A DNA stretch of 64,000 bases. It comes from an uncultured Bacteroidales bacterium. Its GTDB lineage: Bacteria; Bacteroidota; Bacteroidia; Bacteroidales; FEN-979. The stretch's first letter is position 1. Each line of letters opens with the position of its first letter. The notes below the pieces were generated by a model. The model was not told where the DNA came from, did not search any database, and was given only the letters and a program-made list of their open reading frames with translations. The DNA lies in the NCBI GenBank assembly GCA_903887775.1, contig CAISRB010000028.1, positions 62,001 to 126,000 on the forward strand, given 5' to 3'. Shown one piece after another: positions 11,705-60,997 of the stretch. The position numbers and the translations under genes were made by a program.

Positions 11705-11747
11705 GAAAAAACGAGGCCCGGGCGTTAACCCGGGCCTCGTTTTTTTC
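11705..11747. terminator. Strong bidirectional intrinsic terminator
   Basis: A perfect 12-bp stem, ACGAGGCCCGGG (11711-11722) with CCCGGGCCTCGT (11729-11740), loop of 6, is flanked by an A tract on the left and a T tract on the right. It sits between the plus gene ending at 11699 and the minus gene ending at 11767, so it can stop transcription from both sides. Confidence 0.95.
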
Positions 11748-30573: not shown

Positions 30574-30608
30574 AAAAAGGCTGCAGGGAAAAACCCTGCA
30601 GCCTTTTT
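30574..30608. terminator. Intrinsic terminator after the 29999 lipoprotein
   Basis: GGCTGCAGGG (30579-30588), A5 loop, CCCTGCAGCC (30594-30603), with A5 before and T5 after. Ten perfect base pairs. Confidence 0.92.
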
Positions 30609-30610
30609 GC

Positions 30611-52356: not shown

Positions 52357-53013
52357 TCAGATTAGCATTTCGGGGATATCCCCTTCAATGATAAGGTTGC
52401 CTTCAGTGGCATTAAGAATGTCTTCGACACTGACGCCGGGGGCACGTTCCAGGAGCTTGAAACCCTGAGGCGTGACATCCAGCACCGCCAGGTCGGAGAC
52501 AATCTTTTTTACGACACCAACGCCTGTAAGCGGAAGCGTGCATTTTTTCAGAAGCTTCGATTCTCCCTGAGGGTTGGTATGCATCATGGCAACGATGATG
52601 TTGCGGGCTGAAGCAACAAGATCCATGGCACCTCCCATTCCCTTCACCAGTTTTCCGGGTATTTTCCAGCTGGCAATATCGCCGGTTTCCGAAACTTCAA
52701 AAGCTCCCAGGACAGTAAGGTCAATATGCCCTCCCCGTATCATTGCAAAGCTCATCGATGAATCGAAAAATGCCGCACCGGGTAAAGCCGTAATAGTCTG
52801 TTTCCCGGCATTGATCAGATCGGGATCTATTTCGTTTTTTGCGGGGAAAGGGCCAATCCCCAGAAGGCCGTTTTCGGATTGCAGGATGATCTGCATGCCC
52901 GGGGGGACATAATTCGCAACAAGGGTCGGGATTCCAATTCCGAGGTTCACGTAATACCCGTCGCGGAGTTCCTGTGCTATGCGTTTTGCTATTCCGTTCT
53001 TATCAAGTGCCAT
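52357..53013 (-). CDS. scoB: 3-oxoacid CoA-transferase subunit B
   Basis: 218 aa. Transfers CoA from succinyl-CoA or acetyl-CoA to acetoacetate (or the reverse). Catalytic Glu47 is in the SENGLLGIGP motif of class I transferase beta subunits; GGHIDLTVLGAFEV and GMGGAMDLV are also typical. It lies 86 bases after the A-subunit gene on the same strand. Probably uses acetoacetate from the HMG-CoA lyase at the other end of the window, although they are 45 kb apart. Confidence 0.92.
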   Translation of the reverse strand: MALDKNGIAKRIAQELRDGYYVNLGIGIPTLVANYVPPGMQIILQSENGLLGIGPFPAKNEIDPDLINAGKQTITALPGAAFFDSSMSFAMIRGGHIDLTVLGAFEVSETGDIASWKIPGKLVKGMGGAMDLVASARNIIVAMMHTNPQGESKLLKKCTLPLTGVGVVKKIVSDLAVLDVTPQGFKLLERAPGVSVEDILNATEGNLIIEGDIPEMLI

Positions 53014-53099: not shown

Positions 53100-53792
53100 T
53101 CAGTCCCTTGTTGTTGCGAACTCGATCCGTTTTTCATAATTCTGACCCTGGAATATCCTTTGGACAAATACTCCCGGGGTATGAATATGGTTAGGCTCAA
53201 GGGCACCAACTGGTACAAGTTCCTCCACTTCTGCAATGGTGATCTTTCCTGCCATTGCCATCGCATGGTTGAAGTTGTTGGCCACATACCTGTATATGAG
53301 GTTGCCATTCGTATCGCCTTTCCATGCCTTGACAATTGAGAAATCGGCTTTGAGCCACTGCTCTTCCAGGTACATTTTATCTCCAAATTGCCTAACCGGT
53401 TTGCCTTCAGCGACCTCGGTCCCGTAACCTGCCGGCACGTAAAATGCAGGAATTCCCGCCCCGCCTGCACGTATACGTTCAGCCAGGGTTCCCTGGGGGA
53501 TGAGTTCGACTTCGAGTTCCCTGCTGAGCAGCTGGCGTTCAAATTCTTTGTTCTCTCCAACATAAGAAGAAATCATTTTTTCAATCTGGTGCCTGCGCAG
53601 GAGCATGCCAAGACCGAAGCCATCAATACCCGCGTTGTTAGAGATACAGGTAAGGCCTGTGATATCCGTAGCGGCAAGAGCTGCGATACAGTTTTCGGGG
53701 ATCCCGCAAAGGCCGAAACCACCCAGCATAAGAGTCATCTGGCTTTCAATTCCACGTATCGCTTCTATTGCATTTTGTACTACCTTGTTCAT
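53100..53792 (-). CDS. scoA: 3-oxoacid CoA-transferase subunit A
   Basis: 230 aa, alpha subunit of the same enzyme: LGGFGLCGIPENCIAAL (glycine-rich CoA-binding loop at about 23-39) and IRAGGAGIPAFYVPAGYGTEVAEGK are its signatures. ATG 53792. A -7 box TAGATTTG sits 19-26 bases upstream. Together with scoB a two-gene unit, convergent with the LruC gene. Confidence 0.92.
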   Translation of the reverse strand: MNKVVQNAIEAIRGIESQMTLMLGGFGLCGIPENCIAALAATDITGLTCISNNAGIDGFGLGMLLRRHQIEKMISSYVGENKEFERQLLSRELEVELIPQGTLAERIRAGGAGIPAFYVPAGYGTEVAEGKPVRQFGDKMYLEEQWLKADFSIVKAWKGDTNGNLIYRYVANNFNHAMAMAGKITIAEVEELVPVGALEPNHIHTPGVFVQRIFQGQNYEKRIEFATTRD

Positions 53793-53818: not shown

Positions 53819-53972
53819 TAATAATTCTAAATAAAACTAAGAAAAGGAGGAAAAATATCCTGATTCCATATTTGAGGATATACTCATTATTTGAACACAT
53901 TAAGCCGGAAAAACCTGAAAAACTTGAACAGGAGGCTGTTGATATCCCAAGAGTTAAAAAATGTTAAAACCC

Positions 53973-54004
53973 CTTGACAAATGGCTCCGGCTGGATTACA
54001 TTTG
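53973..54004 (+). promoter_or_regulatory. Promoter reading into the structured RNA region
   Basis: CTTG (53973-53976), 20 bases, TACATTTG (53997-54004). The -7 box is exact. The nearest plus-strand gene start is 1.7 kb further on, beyond a minus gene, so the transcript should be noncoding. Confidence 0.6.
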
Positions 54005-54010
54005 TACCAG

Positions 54011-54175
54011 AACTAATCTGAAAAAAGAAAGAGAAACAGATTACAAAATGTAAGTTTTGTGCACATCGGGGGAGACCTTGATGCGGTTCAGAGAGCCCAC
54101 GGCTCAATAAAAAGATCCGTTAAACGGATAAAAGCAAGAATGCTTGAACGCCCCCCTGCGGGGCGTTCGTATTTT
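54011..54175 (+). ncRNA. Candidate small structured RNA with seven consecutive hairpins
   Basis: The 385-base gap between scoA and the Gfo/Idh/MocA gene has no coding frame worth calling. From 54014 it folds locally into: TAATCTG/CAGATTA (54014-54020 with 54037-54043, purine-rich loop of 16); CAAAA/TTTTG (54044-54048, 54055-54059); CATCGGGG-GAGA-CCTTGATG (54064-54083), with a GNRA tetraloop and two G-U pairs; GAGCC/GGCTC (54093-54105); ATCCGT/ACGGAT (54115-54129); AAGCA/TGCTT (54132-54145); and GAACGCCCC/GGGGCGTTC (54146-54168), which with the following TATTTTC can end the transcript. A promoter at 53973-54004 fits. I do not recognise it as SRP RNA, 6S, tmRNA or RNase P. Upstream, 53793-53972 holds only the scoAB promoter and a small AACAG/CTGTT hairpin. 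Confidence 0.55.
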
Positions 54176-54177
54176 CA

Positions 54178-55590
54178 TTACATCCTTACCTGTATGATCT
54201 GTTGGGTAGCACGGCTTTTCTCGGCGGCAAATCCCATCACATGACTTTCTATTGACTGGTCGATGGTTGAAGTCAGGTATTTAGGGTCCTGGTTTGAAAC
54301 TGAAAGTATGAAATCCCGCATCAGGCTCCAGTCCCCTCCTCCATGCCCGCTGTTTTTGAGCTGGTCGAGGTCTTCGGCTCTTGGGACGAGTTTCACCGAT
54401 TTGCCGGTGCGGAAATCGGTCAGGTTCAGTTCTTCCATATCTCCCACCATATCTCCCATCGCTCCCATTACCCTGGTTCTTCTGCCACCGTAAGAAGTAA
54501 ACGCTTCCATCGAGAAGTTTGCAGTAATATTGCCGTCGAACCTCATCGAAGTGATGTAATGGTCGGGCTGGTCATTATCCATATCGTAGACACATCGGCC
54601 GTAATTCGTGGTGCGGAGATATTCGATGACGGCAGCCTGCTGCTTGTCTTTATCATCGGGAAGGTCAAAAACATAAGTCCAGTCCCTGGATCCCCCGTAA
54701 ACCTTAAGGGCAGAGTAAGGGCATCCTGCCTCCGCTGCACAGCCGTCCATGCAACGACTGGTGCTTCCTGCCGGAGCGTTCTCTTTTCTGAACCATTTGA
54801 GGTCACCCATGGCTACAATGTCTTTACAGGGTTTGCCTATCATCCAGCGAAGGATATCCAGGTCATGGCAGGACTTGGCAAGGATTATAGGCGTGGTTTC
54901 CTTTGAATTATGCCAGTTGCCCCGAACATAGGAATGTGACATATGGATATGGTAAATGGGTTCCATATGCTGAAAACTGATCAGTTCACCTATCGCGCCA
55001 TCGGCAATAAGTTGTTTCATCTTGATGAAATAGGGTGTATAACGCAGAACGTGGCATATCGCGACTATCCTTCCCGTGTTCTTCACTTTGGCAAGTATGT
55101 CGCGGCATTCCTGTTCAGTCTGGGCCATTGGCTTTTCAAGCAACACATCATAACCCATCTCCAGAGCCGTCATACAAGGTACATAATGCAGGTTATCCGG
55201 CATCGTGATGATGACGGCATCGGCGAATTTTGGTCTTTTGAAAACATCCTCCCAGGTCTTAAACCTGTTTTCTTCAGGGATATGATGGATTTTGGTATAC
55301 CTTTCATTCCTGATAGGGATGGGTTCAGCAACGCCTATTATCCTGATCTGCCCGGGAAAATTAGCAGCGTAACCACCATAAACATTGCCCCTGTTCCCTG
55401 CGCCGCAGGTGATGGCCGTGATGGGTCTCCCCAGCGGATTGTCGATAGGCTTGAAAACCTCGTCAAGTCCGAGGGAATATTCAACTTTATTATCAGAGAC
55501 CTGGGAAAATCCCTGTACGCCGATGGCAGCGCCTCCGATCGTCAACCCGAGGGTCTTCAAAGCTTCACGGCGGGTAAGATTCTTTGACAT
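54178..55590 (-). CDS. Gfo/Idh/MocA-family oxidoreductase, exported
   Basis: 470 aa. N-terminus NLTRREALKTLGLTIGGAAIG is a twin-arginine-like export signal (RR at 7-8). Rossmann domain with CGAGNRGNVYGGYA; the EKPMA motif of the family (about 153-157); and catalytic-side HDLDILRWMIGKPC. Related proteins oxidise sugars or inositol, or act as GH109-type NAD-dependent glycosidases. A cysteine-containing segment (CMDGCAAEAGCPY) is an added feature of this subfamily. Divergent from the T9SS gene at 55685; substrate unknown. Confidence 0.85.
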   Translation of the reverse strand: MSKNLTRREALKTLGLTIGGAAIGVQGFSQVSDNKVEYSLGLDEVFKPIDNPLGRPITAITCGAGNRGNVYGGYAANFPGQIRIIGVAEPIPIRNERYTKIHHIPEENRFKTWEDVFKRPKFADAVIITMPDNLHYVPCMTALEMGYDVLLEKPMAQTEQECRDILAKVKNTGRIVAICHVLRYTPYFIKMKQLIADGAIGELISFQHMEPIYHIHMSHSYVRGNWHNSKETTPIILAKSCHDLDILRWMIGKPCKDIVAMGDLKWFRKENAPAGSTSRCMDGCAAEAGCPYSALKVYGGSRDWTYVFDLPDDKDKQQAAVIEYLRTTNYGRCVYDMDNDQPDHYITSMRFDGNITANFSMEAFTSYGGRRTRVMGAMGDMVGDMEELNLTDFRTGKSVKLVPRAEDLDQLKNSGHGGGDWSLMRDFILSVSNQDPKYLTSTIDQSIESHVMGFAAEKSRATQQIIQVRM

Positions 55591-55684
55591 AGCAGCAGTT
55601 TTTTGTACTGTAAAGATAAAAGTATTTTTTCAGGGTTCGGTGGGTCCTGTATTTTTTGTACTTTAACATTTTAAAACCATATTT

Positions 55685-57121
55685 ATGTGCCGGCGGATGA
55701 CATTATTACTGCTGTTTCTGCCTTTAGGCCTGTTCTCCCAGAACTGGAGGAATATCTGTTCGGCAGGAAAGACATTTTATGTTGATACAGCATTTTCGAT
55801 GGCCGCTTTCCGCCTGGACTCGGTGCAGGTACAAAGCAATGGCGATACCATATATTATTCATACCTCACCCTAAGGGGGGCAAATGCAGTTTGTCTCGAC
55901 AGTCTGTATGGCTCTGTTCTCGGCAATAAGGTGATAGGCAAAGCCGGCGGCCTTTTCTGTTTTTTCAACGCATCCGGCGATTCGCTCTGGATCAATACAA
56001 CAGCTGAATTGAATGATTCCTGGGAGTTCTTACATCCGCAGTCAGGAAATATAATTACAGCCAGGGTGATTGATATAAAGCCCGACACCATCATGGGGGT
56101 TATTGATTCGGTCAGGTTCATTTCGCTCAGGGATAATCATCAAACGGTCGACGCAGTGATCAAACTTTCAAAGCATTACGGATTAACACAAATCCCCGAT
56201 CTGTACTATGTTCCGGCAATCACAGGATATTTCACCCTGGCAGGCAAATCCGCAGCCGGGATAGGATTTCAGCAGTGTATGCGTGCTCAGGGAATCTACG
56301 ATTTTTCAGTCGGCGATGAATTCCATTATTATCACACAAAAGATATAGCATATCCACGTCATTTTGATACCACTGAAATCCGTAAAGTGCTTGCCGTATC
56401 CTGGTCTGCCGACTCAGGCAGTGTAATATACAAATTCAGACGCTGCATGCATGTTCAGCATGTATGGGAATACCCTGTCGACACGATTTACGCAGATACT
56501 GTTGACTGGAAGTACAACTTTTCTGCTACATGGAACAATACTTATCTGGTCAGCTTACCAGGGGAGAAAGACGGGGTTTGGGCTCATGACTTTATCTATC
56601 ATCAGTATAACCAGCGCAGCACTTCTTATTCCAGATATGGCCAATACTGGTATTATACTTCCGACAGCTGCTGGAAATCGGGAGGCGGAGGAGGGGTTTT
56701 GGTTGCTGGGAATAGTTATTTTGCACCAGGACTTGGCATGACCGGGCTGACATCGGAGGGTCATTCCACCGGGGAATGGCTGGAGCTGAAATACTACAGT
56801 AAAGGAAGTGAAAGCTGGGGCAGCCCGGTGGATGTAGAATGTGCAGGTACGGGGATTGAAGAGAACCTGCCAGGCTTGAATGTTCAGGTAAGCCCAAACC
56901 CTGCCGCTGACGGGTTTTCTGTTTCAATTCCCGGGATAAACGAGGGCGAAAGATTTACTTATTCCGTCAGGGATCTGCTTGGCCGCAGATTCCTCAGCGG
57001 CAGTTTTTCAGGCAGAAGCTGTTTTATAAACGGGTCAGGGATGCCTTCCGGACTTTATATCCTTATGCTTAACGACAGCAGGGGAAGATCGTTCCCGGCA
57101 GTGAAGGTCTTACTTAAATAG
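55685..57121 (+). CDS. T9SS-secreted protein of unknown function
   Basis: 478 aa. Signal peptide at about 1-19 (LLLLFLPLGLFSQ). Beta-rich middle with many Tyr/Trp/Asp residues and no recognised motif. The last 80 residues are a type A sorting domain (LNVQVSPNPAADGFSVSIP, YSVRDLLGRRF, MPSGLYILML). Expected on the surface or in the medium. The old yellow enzyme gene starts 5 bases after its stop, an odd pairing of secreted and cytoplasmic proteins. Confidence 0.8.
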   Translation: MCRRMTLLLLFLPLGLFSQNWRNICSAGKTFYVDTAFSMAAFRLDSVQVQSNGDTIYYSYLTLRGANAVCLDSLYGSVLGNKVIGKAGGLFCFFNASGDSLWINTTAELNDSWEFLHPQSGNIITARVIDIKPDTIMGVIDSVRFISLRDNHQTVDAVIKLSKHYGLTQIPDLYYVPAITGYFTLAGKSAAGIGFQQCMRAQGIYDFSVGDEFHYYHTKDIAYPRHFDTTEIRKVLAVSWSADSGSVIYKFRRCMHVQHVWEYPVDTIYADTVDWKYNFSATWNNTYLVSLPGEKDGVWAHDFIYHQYNQRSTSYSRYGQYWYYTSDSCWKSGGGGGVLVAGNSYFAPGLGMTGLTSEGHSTGEWLELKYYSKGSESWGSPVDVECAGTGIEENLPGLNVQVSPNPAADGFSVSIPGINEGERFTYSVRDLLGRRFLSGSFSGRSCFINGSGMPSGLYILMLNDSRGRSFPAVKVLLK

Positions 57122-59260: not shown

Positions 59261-60997
59261 TTATGATCTTCCCAGTGCTTCCTCTTCCTCGGCTCCCTCG
59301 ACGTCATACCAGTGATAGAGTCCTTCCATCAGGCGTTTCTGTTTTTCTTCAGGGCTGAGACGTTCGTATGCTTCACGGGCTTCATGGGCTTTACGCCGTT
59401 TTTCTTCCTCGATAGCCCAGATATTGGTCGTGTATTTATCTTCAACGCAATTCTGAAGGAATTCACGTGCTACCGTCGGGAAAAGTTCGAGCAACAGTTC
59501 ATCCTTTTCATTTTCCGCCAGGTGCAATCCGCCGTAATCCTCAAAAATTGTATTTTCCTGTTTTTTATAATTCCTTGTATCGTATGGTGTCTCTTCACGA
59601 ACCCCGGTAAGCAGTTCCCTGAAGTCAGGGTCTACGGGAATGGGCGTCCTGCCATAAAGACCCTTGACCAGGTTGACAAACTGTATTGATTTAGTCGTAA
59701 AAAAAGCCTGTCCTTTGTTTTCATCGATTACGCAATTGACAGCCTGAACGCCAACGATCTGGGATGTTGGAGTAACCAATGGGGGGCAGCCCGATTTGAT
59801 TCGCACCAGGGGAACCAGCTCGAGAACCCGGGGAAGAAGGTGGTCGAGTTTCAGCTGCTTCAGCTGGGCCAGCATATTGGTGTACATCCCTCCGGGGATC
59901 TCGGCTCTTTTAACTTCCTCATCGGGTTCGGGGAAACCGAATTGCTTTTCTATTTCCTGGCACACCTGAAGGAGTTCAGGCTCCTTGTCGTGTTTGGCCA
60001 GGTAAATGGCCTGCACAAACAGGCGGTTTTCCTCTTTTGACAGTTTGTAGTTTGTAATGTCGAATTCTCTCGGGAAGGAGGTTGTGTCAAATTCTTTCAA
60101 CTCGGCCCTGATCTCTTTGAGTTCATTGTCGATCTTTTTAACAGCCTGCCTGTTGACACCGGTATCTATCCCGAGTTTATCGCAGAAAACCTGGATCAGT
60201 TCAAAAGCAGGAGCAGCCGGTCCGCCGGCGAAATGCCAGATACTGGTATCCACGACATCCACCCCGTTGACAATAGCCATAAGCACCGAAGCAAGCCCGT
60301 AACCAGGAGTACAATGGGTGTGAAAATCTATTGGGACGCGTAGTTCGGCTTTCATCCTCCGGATCAGTTCACCGGATTGTAATGGAGTTATCAGCCCAGC
60401 CATGTCTTTGATACTGATCATATTAGCACCAAGGGCCTCAAGCTGCCTGGCTTTCTCCATAAAATAATCTATCGTAAAAATGTCATGCGGTAATGCCTTA
60501 AGGTGGATGAGCGACCTTAATCTCTGTCTTGTGCTGAACTTGGGATCTACCGTGAAACTTATCGCGCAATCGGCCATGCCACCGCTTTCTTTCACATATT
60601 TTATGGTCGATTTCATATTATCGACATCATTCAGGGCATCGAAGATCCTCATGATCCCTATGCCCGATTTAACCGCATTCCGGTTAAACCCTTCAATTAC
60701 TTCGTCGGGATATGGGTTATAGCCGAAAAGATTACGGCCTCTTGAAAGGGCAGTGAGTTTCGATACATCGCCAATGGATTCCCTGATTTTTTCAAGCCTC
60801 GTCCAGGGGTTTTCGTGAAGGTAACGCATAATGCTGTCGGGGACAGCTCCACCCCAGACTTCCATAGCATAAAAGCCGGCGTCTTTATAAAAGGGGAGCA
60901 CACGGTCAACCTGCTCCTGGGTCATTCGGGTTGCAAAAAGGGACTGTTGTCCGTCACGGAGGGTAAGATCCCTTATCAGTAGTTTTCGGCGAGACAT
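59261..60997 (-). CDS. Biotin-dependent carboxyltransferase, oxaloacetate decarboxylase alpha/transcarboxylase 5S type
   Basis: 578 aa. Moves carboxyl between carboxybiotin and pyruvate/oxaloacetate. DRE-TIM start LLIRDLTLRDGQQSLFATRM; IRIFDALND-like block GIMRIFDALND; conserved metal/carboxylysine region MISIKDMAGLITP; DFHTHCTPGYGLASVLMAI with the HxH metal ligands; conserved C-terminal carboxylase domain with PGGMYTNMLAQLKQL. No biotinyl domain at the C-terminus, which is instead an Arg/Glu-rich helix (EEKRRKAHEAREAYERLS), so it must use a separate carrier, probably the one at 63229. Divergent from mmdA, 195 bases away. Confidence 0.9.
   Translation of the reverse strand: MSRRKLLIRDLTLRDGQQSLFATRMTQEQVDRVLPFYKDAGFYAMEVWGGAVPDSIMRYLHENPWTRLEKIRESIGDVSKLTALSRGRNLFGYNPYPDEVIEGFNRNAVKSGIGIMRIFDALNDVDNMKSTIKYVKESGGMADCAISFTVDPKFSTRQRLRSLIHLKALPHDIFTIDYFMEKARQLEALGANMISIKDMAGLITPLQSGELIRRMKAELRVPIDFHTHCTPGYGLASVLMAIVNGVDVVDTSIWHFAGGPAAPAFELIQVFCDKLGIDTGVNRQAVKKIDNELKEIRAELKEFDTTSFPREFDITNYKLSKEENRLFVQAIYLAKHDKEPELLQVCQEIEKQFGFPEPDEEVKRAEIPGGMYTNMLAQLKQLKLDHLLPRVLELVPLVRIKSGCPPLVTPTSQIVGVQAVNCVIDENKGQAFFTTKSIQFVNLVKGLYGRTPIPVDPDFRELLTGVREETPYDTRNYKKQENTIFEDYGGLHLAENEKDELLLELFPTVAREFLQNCVEDKYTTNIWAIEEEKRRKAHEAREAYERLSPEEKQKRLMEGLYHWYDVEGAEEEEALGRS

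Follow-up and report, generated by a model that had tools for sequence, protein, structure and literature searches.

The gap between a divergent CoA-transferase gene and a convergent oxidoreductase gene in the window (the whole stretch of 64,000 nucleotides that was analysed, from genome G000, 3,827,741 bases in 33 contigs) very probably contains a small-RNA gene that has not been described before and that has a promoter and a stop signal of its own. A housekeeping-type Bacteroidota promoter, a predicted structured RNA (about 165 nt) and an intrinsic terminator form a conserved unit, which has been kept in two related genera although the neighbours and much of the letter sequence have changed. 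With a probability of roughly 0.6, this is an independent small-RNA gene whose free transcript would act in trans as a post-transcriptional regulator, and a trans-acting regulatory RNA is its most likely role. The family is new, although RNAs of this ordinary kind are already known. The letters of the window had led to the proposal (the sequence-only reading) of an RNA of its own, about 165 nt long and uncharacterised, and comparison with related genomes, through covariation and copies that persist without the neighbours, supports that proposal. The features of the locus, with the hairpins numbered H1 to H7, are as follows.

52357..53013, minus strand: second CoA-transferase subunit, presumably atoA (Pfam CoA_trans, 2.5e-46)
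53100..53792, minus strand: CoA-transferase subunit, which we take to be atoD, divergent (Pfam CoA_trans, 5e-70)
53953..53972, plus strand: upstream element with two GTTAA blocks, both invariant across the seven rows of alignment A7
53974..53979, plus strand: -33/-35 box TTGACA, with TTGAC in 22/22 plus 2/2 further homologues
53997..54004, plus strand: -7 box TACATTTG (TAnnTTTG), in 22/22 plus 2/2 homologues with a spacer of 17 or 18
54010..54176, plus strand: predicted small RNA, 5' end placed from the -7 box and 3' end from the terminator
54014..54043, plus strand: H1, with a 16-nt A-rich loop; inner six pairs 100% paired and no two-sided change among the seven genus members
54043..54060, plus strand: H2, weak; 87.5% of cells paired in the genus, no two-sided change
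54064..54083, plus strand: H3, 8 bp with a GAGA loop; two-sided changes in 4/8 pairs in the genus and 8/10 over 24 homologues
54093..54105, plus strand: H4, GAGCC-CAC-GGCUC, inside the most conserved block and invariant in the genus
54115..54129, plus strand: H5; 92.9% paired in the genus, no two-sided change
54132..54145, plus strand: H6; two-sided change at a single pair in the genus
54146..54176, plus strand: H7 and T-rich tail, intrinsic terminator found by terminator scan; the H7 stem itself is 54146-54168
54178..55590, minus strand: Gfo/Idh/MocA oxidoreductase (Gfo), convergent (Pfam)

The order on the plus strand is TTGACA, 17 bases, TACATTTG, seven stems within 155 nt and the terminator. 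The consensus letters of the Bacteroidota housekeeping promoter are TAnnTTTG with an upstream TTG. The arrangement TTGAC-N18-TAnnTTTG has one occurrence in the 64 kb, both strands included, where 0.03 would be expected. A simple sigma-70 scan of 601 bases recovered the window promoter but was no better than shuffles (1 site versus 1.2), and it is therefore the TAnnTTTG form, together with its conservation, that carries the promoter claim. A -7/-33 promoter motif is described in the accessible text of PMC7366714. Several details of the sequence-only reading could be confirmed directly: CTTG at 53973-53976 is followed after exactly 20 bases by the -7 box at 53997-54004, the seven hairpins have their stems within 54014-54168, and the closing hairpin, H7, is of 9 bp and is followed by the T-rich GTATTTTC. 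Base 54043 is common to H1 and H2, and either hairpin must therefore give up one pair. The plus-strand frames at 54343-55666 are mechanical frames over the minus-strand gene at 54178-55590, and the next likely plus-strand gene beyond the predicted RNA starts at 55685. A 5' leader, which the earlier reading had also set aside, or a riboswitch does not fit, as the next likely gene is convergent in all seven layouts read out of the 24 copies (the window, G031, G030, G040, G019, G001 and G022).

The minimum free energy of the predicted RNA was -58.6, compared with -35.6 +/- 3.7 for 200 dinucleotide shuffles (z -6.2), and this value, the homologues and the covariation support the predicted small RNA at 54010..54176. 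When the plus strand of the window was scanned in 798 segments of 166 nt (step 80, 40 shuffles each), the segment at 54011 ranked third (z -5.8). The two better-folding segments overlap and, by eye, both represent one terminator hairpin after a gene end. Other strong folds, at 11710-11745 and 30580-30609, are also ordinary terminator hairpins after gene ends when viewed by eye.

Within the genus of the window's genome (g1), the RNA is present in seven of the eight genomes, the DNA search and a covariance model built from the seven copies (R1) giving the same result. The eighth (G006, 80% complete) yielded no RNA and no match to either flanking gene. The core motif lies on six named contigs from uncultured Bacteroidales/Bacteroidetes MAGs, two of them labelled LacPavin. 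In G001, G007 and G002, the spacer ahead of the promoter (53840-53919) is unalignable, with 0-15% identity, whereas 53960-54159 retains 55-97%; G005 and G003 have a conserved spacer as well (80-97%), and this contrast thus comes from three genomes only. In G001, Gfo had no match at E 1e-100, although the RNA and its terminator are intact. Here (L142 6900-9085) the RNA is followed by the convergent gene that is found 5 kb further along in the window (59261-60997), and the Gfo, 55685 and FMN-oxidoreductase genes have been lost up to a carboxylase-like gene, with remnants of the lost intervening genes visible by eye. The claim of a GNRA loop stood in part: the 8-bp H3 does have GAGA in the window, but the loop type is not a general feature, being kept in four of the seven genus members (GAGA, GAGA, GCAA and GAAA, with a GAUGA pentaloop in the other three, by eye), while the sister genus has a loop of about 7 nt in its place. 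H1 and H2 were detected in the window's own genus only.

A diverged form of the RNA was found in 17 of the 19 genomes of the sister genus (g3), 15 with a joint g1 and g3 covariance model (R2) and two with looser searches. With filters on, R1 matched none of these 19 in the family search, and 'absent' in filtered searches is therefore weak. Without filters, R1 gave 12 matches at E <=0.0034 (the next being >=1.2) among 23 CoA-transferase loci of other genera, and all 12 belong to the sister genus; two further sister-genus loci among the 23, L046 and L050, cover the RNA incompletely. The 12 copies have the promoter, H3, H4, a longer H5, H6 and the terminator in common, and H4 is AGCC-AAA-GGCU in most, with other forms in L040 and L034. 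R2 matched 22 of the 43 family genomes at E <=7.3e-16, namely the seven g1 genomes and 15 of the 19 from g3. In all 22 copies TTGAC, 17 or 18 bases and TAnnTTTG were located 36-49 bases upstream of the modelled core. The remaining two copies, in G040 and G019, were not matched by R1 and were recovered by R2 with looser filters (E 9e-4 and 0.002) and locally without filters (E 1.4e-6 and 3.7e-6), with fold z-scores of -4.1 and -3.1. Both have the promoter with a spacer of 18, and H6 is missing. They come after two genes whose G030 counterparts lie ahead of atoA-atoD and the RNA (50% and 67% identity between G040 and G030; G019 is the same by eye), and they were accepted as copies because promoter, gene order and score agree. 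In total, 24 of the 27 genomes of the two genera carry the RNA, with one accepted copy per genome, and in G006, G025 and G038, where the weak matches were inspected, there was no detectable copy. A TAnnTTTG box with the upstream TTG element, in the form TTGAC-N17/18-TAnnTTTG, precedes all 24 copies, and a terminator stem and T-rich tail are found in all 24 when aligned, as expected of intergenic small RNAs with a housekeeping-type promoter.

Compensatory base changes among homologues, which had been proposed as a check on the RNA, are present both within g1 and across the two genera. Within g1, five pairs showed two-sided changes, four of them in H3, compared with 1.3 in shuffles and <=2 in slid controls. 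H4 and H7 are invariant there and hence neutral, and the further pair types did not exceed shuffles (154/500 reached the count). In the alignment of all 24 copies, 88.4% of cells pair. Two-sided changes affect 20 pairs (13.2 in shuffles) and 86 cells (29.2 in shuffles, 12-26 in slid controls), cells that are not independent events as the copies are related, and the covariation score is 0.338 (0.161 in shuffles, <=0.103 in slid controls). One of the five measures, the further pair types, did not exceed shuffles (40 versus 37.0, reached by 59/500; in another cross-genus alignment the count was reached by 267/500). The compensatory changes fall mainly in helices 3 and 5, the pairs with two-sided changes numbering eight in H3, two in H4 (of four pairs), six in H5 (of ten), one in H6 and three in H7 (of eight). 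H5 is longer in the sister genus. H5 and H6 could not be aligned between the genera and are partly broken in the g1 rows, where g1 has stems of its own.

Outside these two genera, neither the rest of the family nor the order and class samples gave a homologue that could be accepted. The strong R2 matches were the window's own genome and the sister-genus member G009 in the order sample (393 genomes), and the own genome alone in the class sample (395 genomes). In the remaining genera of the family, an unfiltered R2 search of nine CoA-transferase loci produced a single match (E 0.08), and whole genomes gave weak matches only, of which all but a few second ones were inspected. R2 E-values are rough, and gene-end terminators alone score down to about 1e-5. 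Weak matches were inspected in 12 genomes in the family search (at least one match of each), in 28 of the 62 order-sample genomes besides G000 and G009, and in 11 of the 16 class-sample genomes besides G000. Among 36 weak loci (eight from the family and 28 from the order), 35 had no TAnnTTTG in the 150 bases or fewer upstream, the exception being L121, and the promoter was absent from all 11 class-sample loci and all five further family loci, which come from five genomes, with G006 represented in both family sets. By eye, most of the weak loci resemble gene ends with terminators. The hairpin motif test would miss diverged copies but the promoter test should not. A 34 bp DNA match in G008 was dropped, as no promoter was seen by eye and neither R1 nor R2 without filters gave a match there. 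Viral contigs contained no exact match to either motif, and the open-licence literature, as far as its accessible text responds to general search terms, yielded nothing on this RNA.

Two other kinds of sequence were encountered among the weak matches. At L121 1351-1630, the match has a TAnnTTTG box 26 bases ahead of it and a terminator is present without the hairpin motif, and this is possibly another small RNA. L111 1501-1638, L115 1501-1614 and L118 1501-1615 represent a conserved intergenic stretch in three genomes of genus g166 in another family, f8, which includes an inverted repeat around AAGATT/AATCTT, the run GTTTAGTTTAGGGTTAGTTTAGTTATG and a terminator; these weak R2 matches are not this RNA.

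The RNA and atoD are divergent in all 21 genomes that have both on one contig, G037 having them on two. The distance from the RNA core to atoD is 148-303 bp in g1 and G030 and 1261-1430 bp in the other g3 genomes. In G031 and G022, an FMN-oxidoreductase gene (identified by Pfam on G031 only) fills the gap. The CoA-transferase genes of G031 (L135 859-6035) are followed by homogentisate dioxygenase, hydroxyphenylpyruvate dioxygenase and fumarylacetoacetase domain genes, while the pair in the window stands without these adjoining tyrosine-breakdown genes. Tyrosine breakdown yields acetoacetate, which a CoA-transferase could activate, and in this context atoD is a natural candidate target. The constant orientation, too, would suit an RNA that regulates the divergent CoA-transferase operon by pairing of the 5' arm of H5 with the atoD leader, but we regard this as improbable and as a weak lead. 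The longest complementarity between RNA and leader (7-11 bp) falls on this same arm in nine of the 13 g3 genomes whose leader could be read, a count that leaves out G037, where the leader is from a contig without atoD, and G009, which gave none; in G030 the two partners have changed together (AAAAUCUUU versus GGAGAUUUU, by eye). However, the g3 sequences are related and these are not nine events, and in none of the seven g1 genomes, the window included, does the arm hold the longest complementarity. Duplex energies with the atoD start region were below all 30 shuffles in the window, where the signal extends over a longer stretch than the H5 arm, and in G007, but only three of 19 genomes (G000, G007 and G032) beat 95% of 30 mononucleotide shuffles. 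In addition, G040 and G019 keep the RNA although atoD, the one subunit searched for, had no match there at E 1e-40, and these copies also break the rule that the RNA occurs exactly where atoD does.

As the RNA persists without Gfo in G001 and without a close atoD in G040 and G019, neither neighbour alone is required for it, and it is neither a 3' tail nor only a shared terminator. It is thus highly improbable, and already contradicted, that the locus is just a terminator working in both directions, with hairpins that arose by chance, or that it is the 3' UTR of Gfo on the minus strand. The opposite strand of the predicted RNA does fold well (z -4.9) and has a terminator-like site at 54129-54115, but Gfo, missing at E 1e-100 from G001, is on another contig than the RNA in the eight g3 genomes that have it, and the promoter, H3, H4 and H5 persist without an adjoining Gfo. 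The sequence-only reading had named the tail of the minus-strand gene as the outcome that would undo its proposal, and the same genomes speak against it. The RNA is probably not coding. A frame ending RFREPTAQ-stop is common to six of the seven g1 copies and an 11-codon ATG frame over H3 to five of 15 g3 copies, which might suggest a peptide gene or a dual-function RNA with a tiny reading frame. That is very unlikely, as the two frames sit at different places, starts, stops or frame differ in the remaining copies, the G040 copy is without any frame of eight codons and the H4 block has no synonymous change in g1. A protein-binding RNA, with the small hairpins serving as a scaffold or decoy and no mRNA pairing, would account for an architecture that is kept while stem sequences turn over and for back-to-back hairpins with short linkers. 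Decoy RNAs such as CsrB have repeated loop motifs, but no motif was seen by eye to be repeated among the loops of the window or the sister genus, and we consider this reading unlikely. It is similarly doubtful that the architecture, not the sequence or the neighbours, is under selection and that the RNA acts via a protein partner new to Bacteroidota.

The trans-acting regulatory RNA remains the preferred reading. The predicted RNA would be transcribed as a free RNA and act in trans on gene expression after transcription, its single-stranded A-rich 5' part and linkers would be open to pairing with mRNAs, and the series of hairpins may stabilise the RNA or bind a protein. The natural gene losses make it unlikely that controlling one or the other neighbour is all it does. 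In the parts of the literature available, what is known of regulatory RNA in Bacteroidota comes mainly from gut Bacteroides, and the finding here is an RNA family of uncultured relatives that shows covariation and is defined by its promoter, obtained from raw sequence. The 24 copies provide a starting alignment.

The Rfam 15 search gave no match at the gathering cut-off within the window, in agreement with the earlier view that this is none of the common housekeeping RNAs. The best score at the locus was to sraL (RF01408), at 14.2 bits compared with a gathering value of 39 (E 0.67, chance), and the likeness to sraL is limited to this score below the cut-off. Four sister-genus loci gave sub-threshold scores only, and two such scores lie over the L040 RNA (23 bits versus 55 and 21.5 versus 56). 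A 6S-type RNA is one long hairpin that pairs the 5' and 3' ends around a bubble, and this does not describe the separate local hairpins seen here in the folds and the alignment, where a short closing stem appears in some minimum-energy folds and just two of its pairs are in the consensus. The Bacteroidales-1 RNA (RF01693), which appears in a table in the available portion of PMC2864571, is also a structured Bacteroidales RNA of similar length (179 model positions), but it had no match in the window or in G000, G001, G007, G030 and G031 (E 0.001). The control, Bacteroides ihuae, does carry it.

Similar in organisation, as far as the accessible text of the sources goes, is GibS of Bacteroides thetaiotaomicron, a 145 nt intergenic RNA with its own promoter and an end terminator (PMC7366714, PMC11697453), which is likewise conserved among relatives. 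According to the same sources, most of GibS lacks structure: its 5' part is single-stranded, it has two meta-stable hairpins, and its promoter is of the motif-2 type (PMC7366714, PMC11697453). This description sets it apart from the RNA reported here, which has a TAnnTTTG promoter and as many as seven hairpins. Both GibS and FopS are described there as pairing through open 5' parts (PMC7366714, PMC11697453). FopS, of about 65-70 nt with 14 paralogues, has a 5' stretch and one terminator hairpin according to the part of PMC11697453 available. It resembles the present RNA in being a Bacteroidales small RNA with a canonical housekeeping-sigma promoter, but the latter has one accepted copy per genome, a length of about 165 nt and four to seven hairpins, and is not assigned to FopS because copy number, length and hairpin count all differ.
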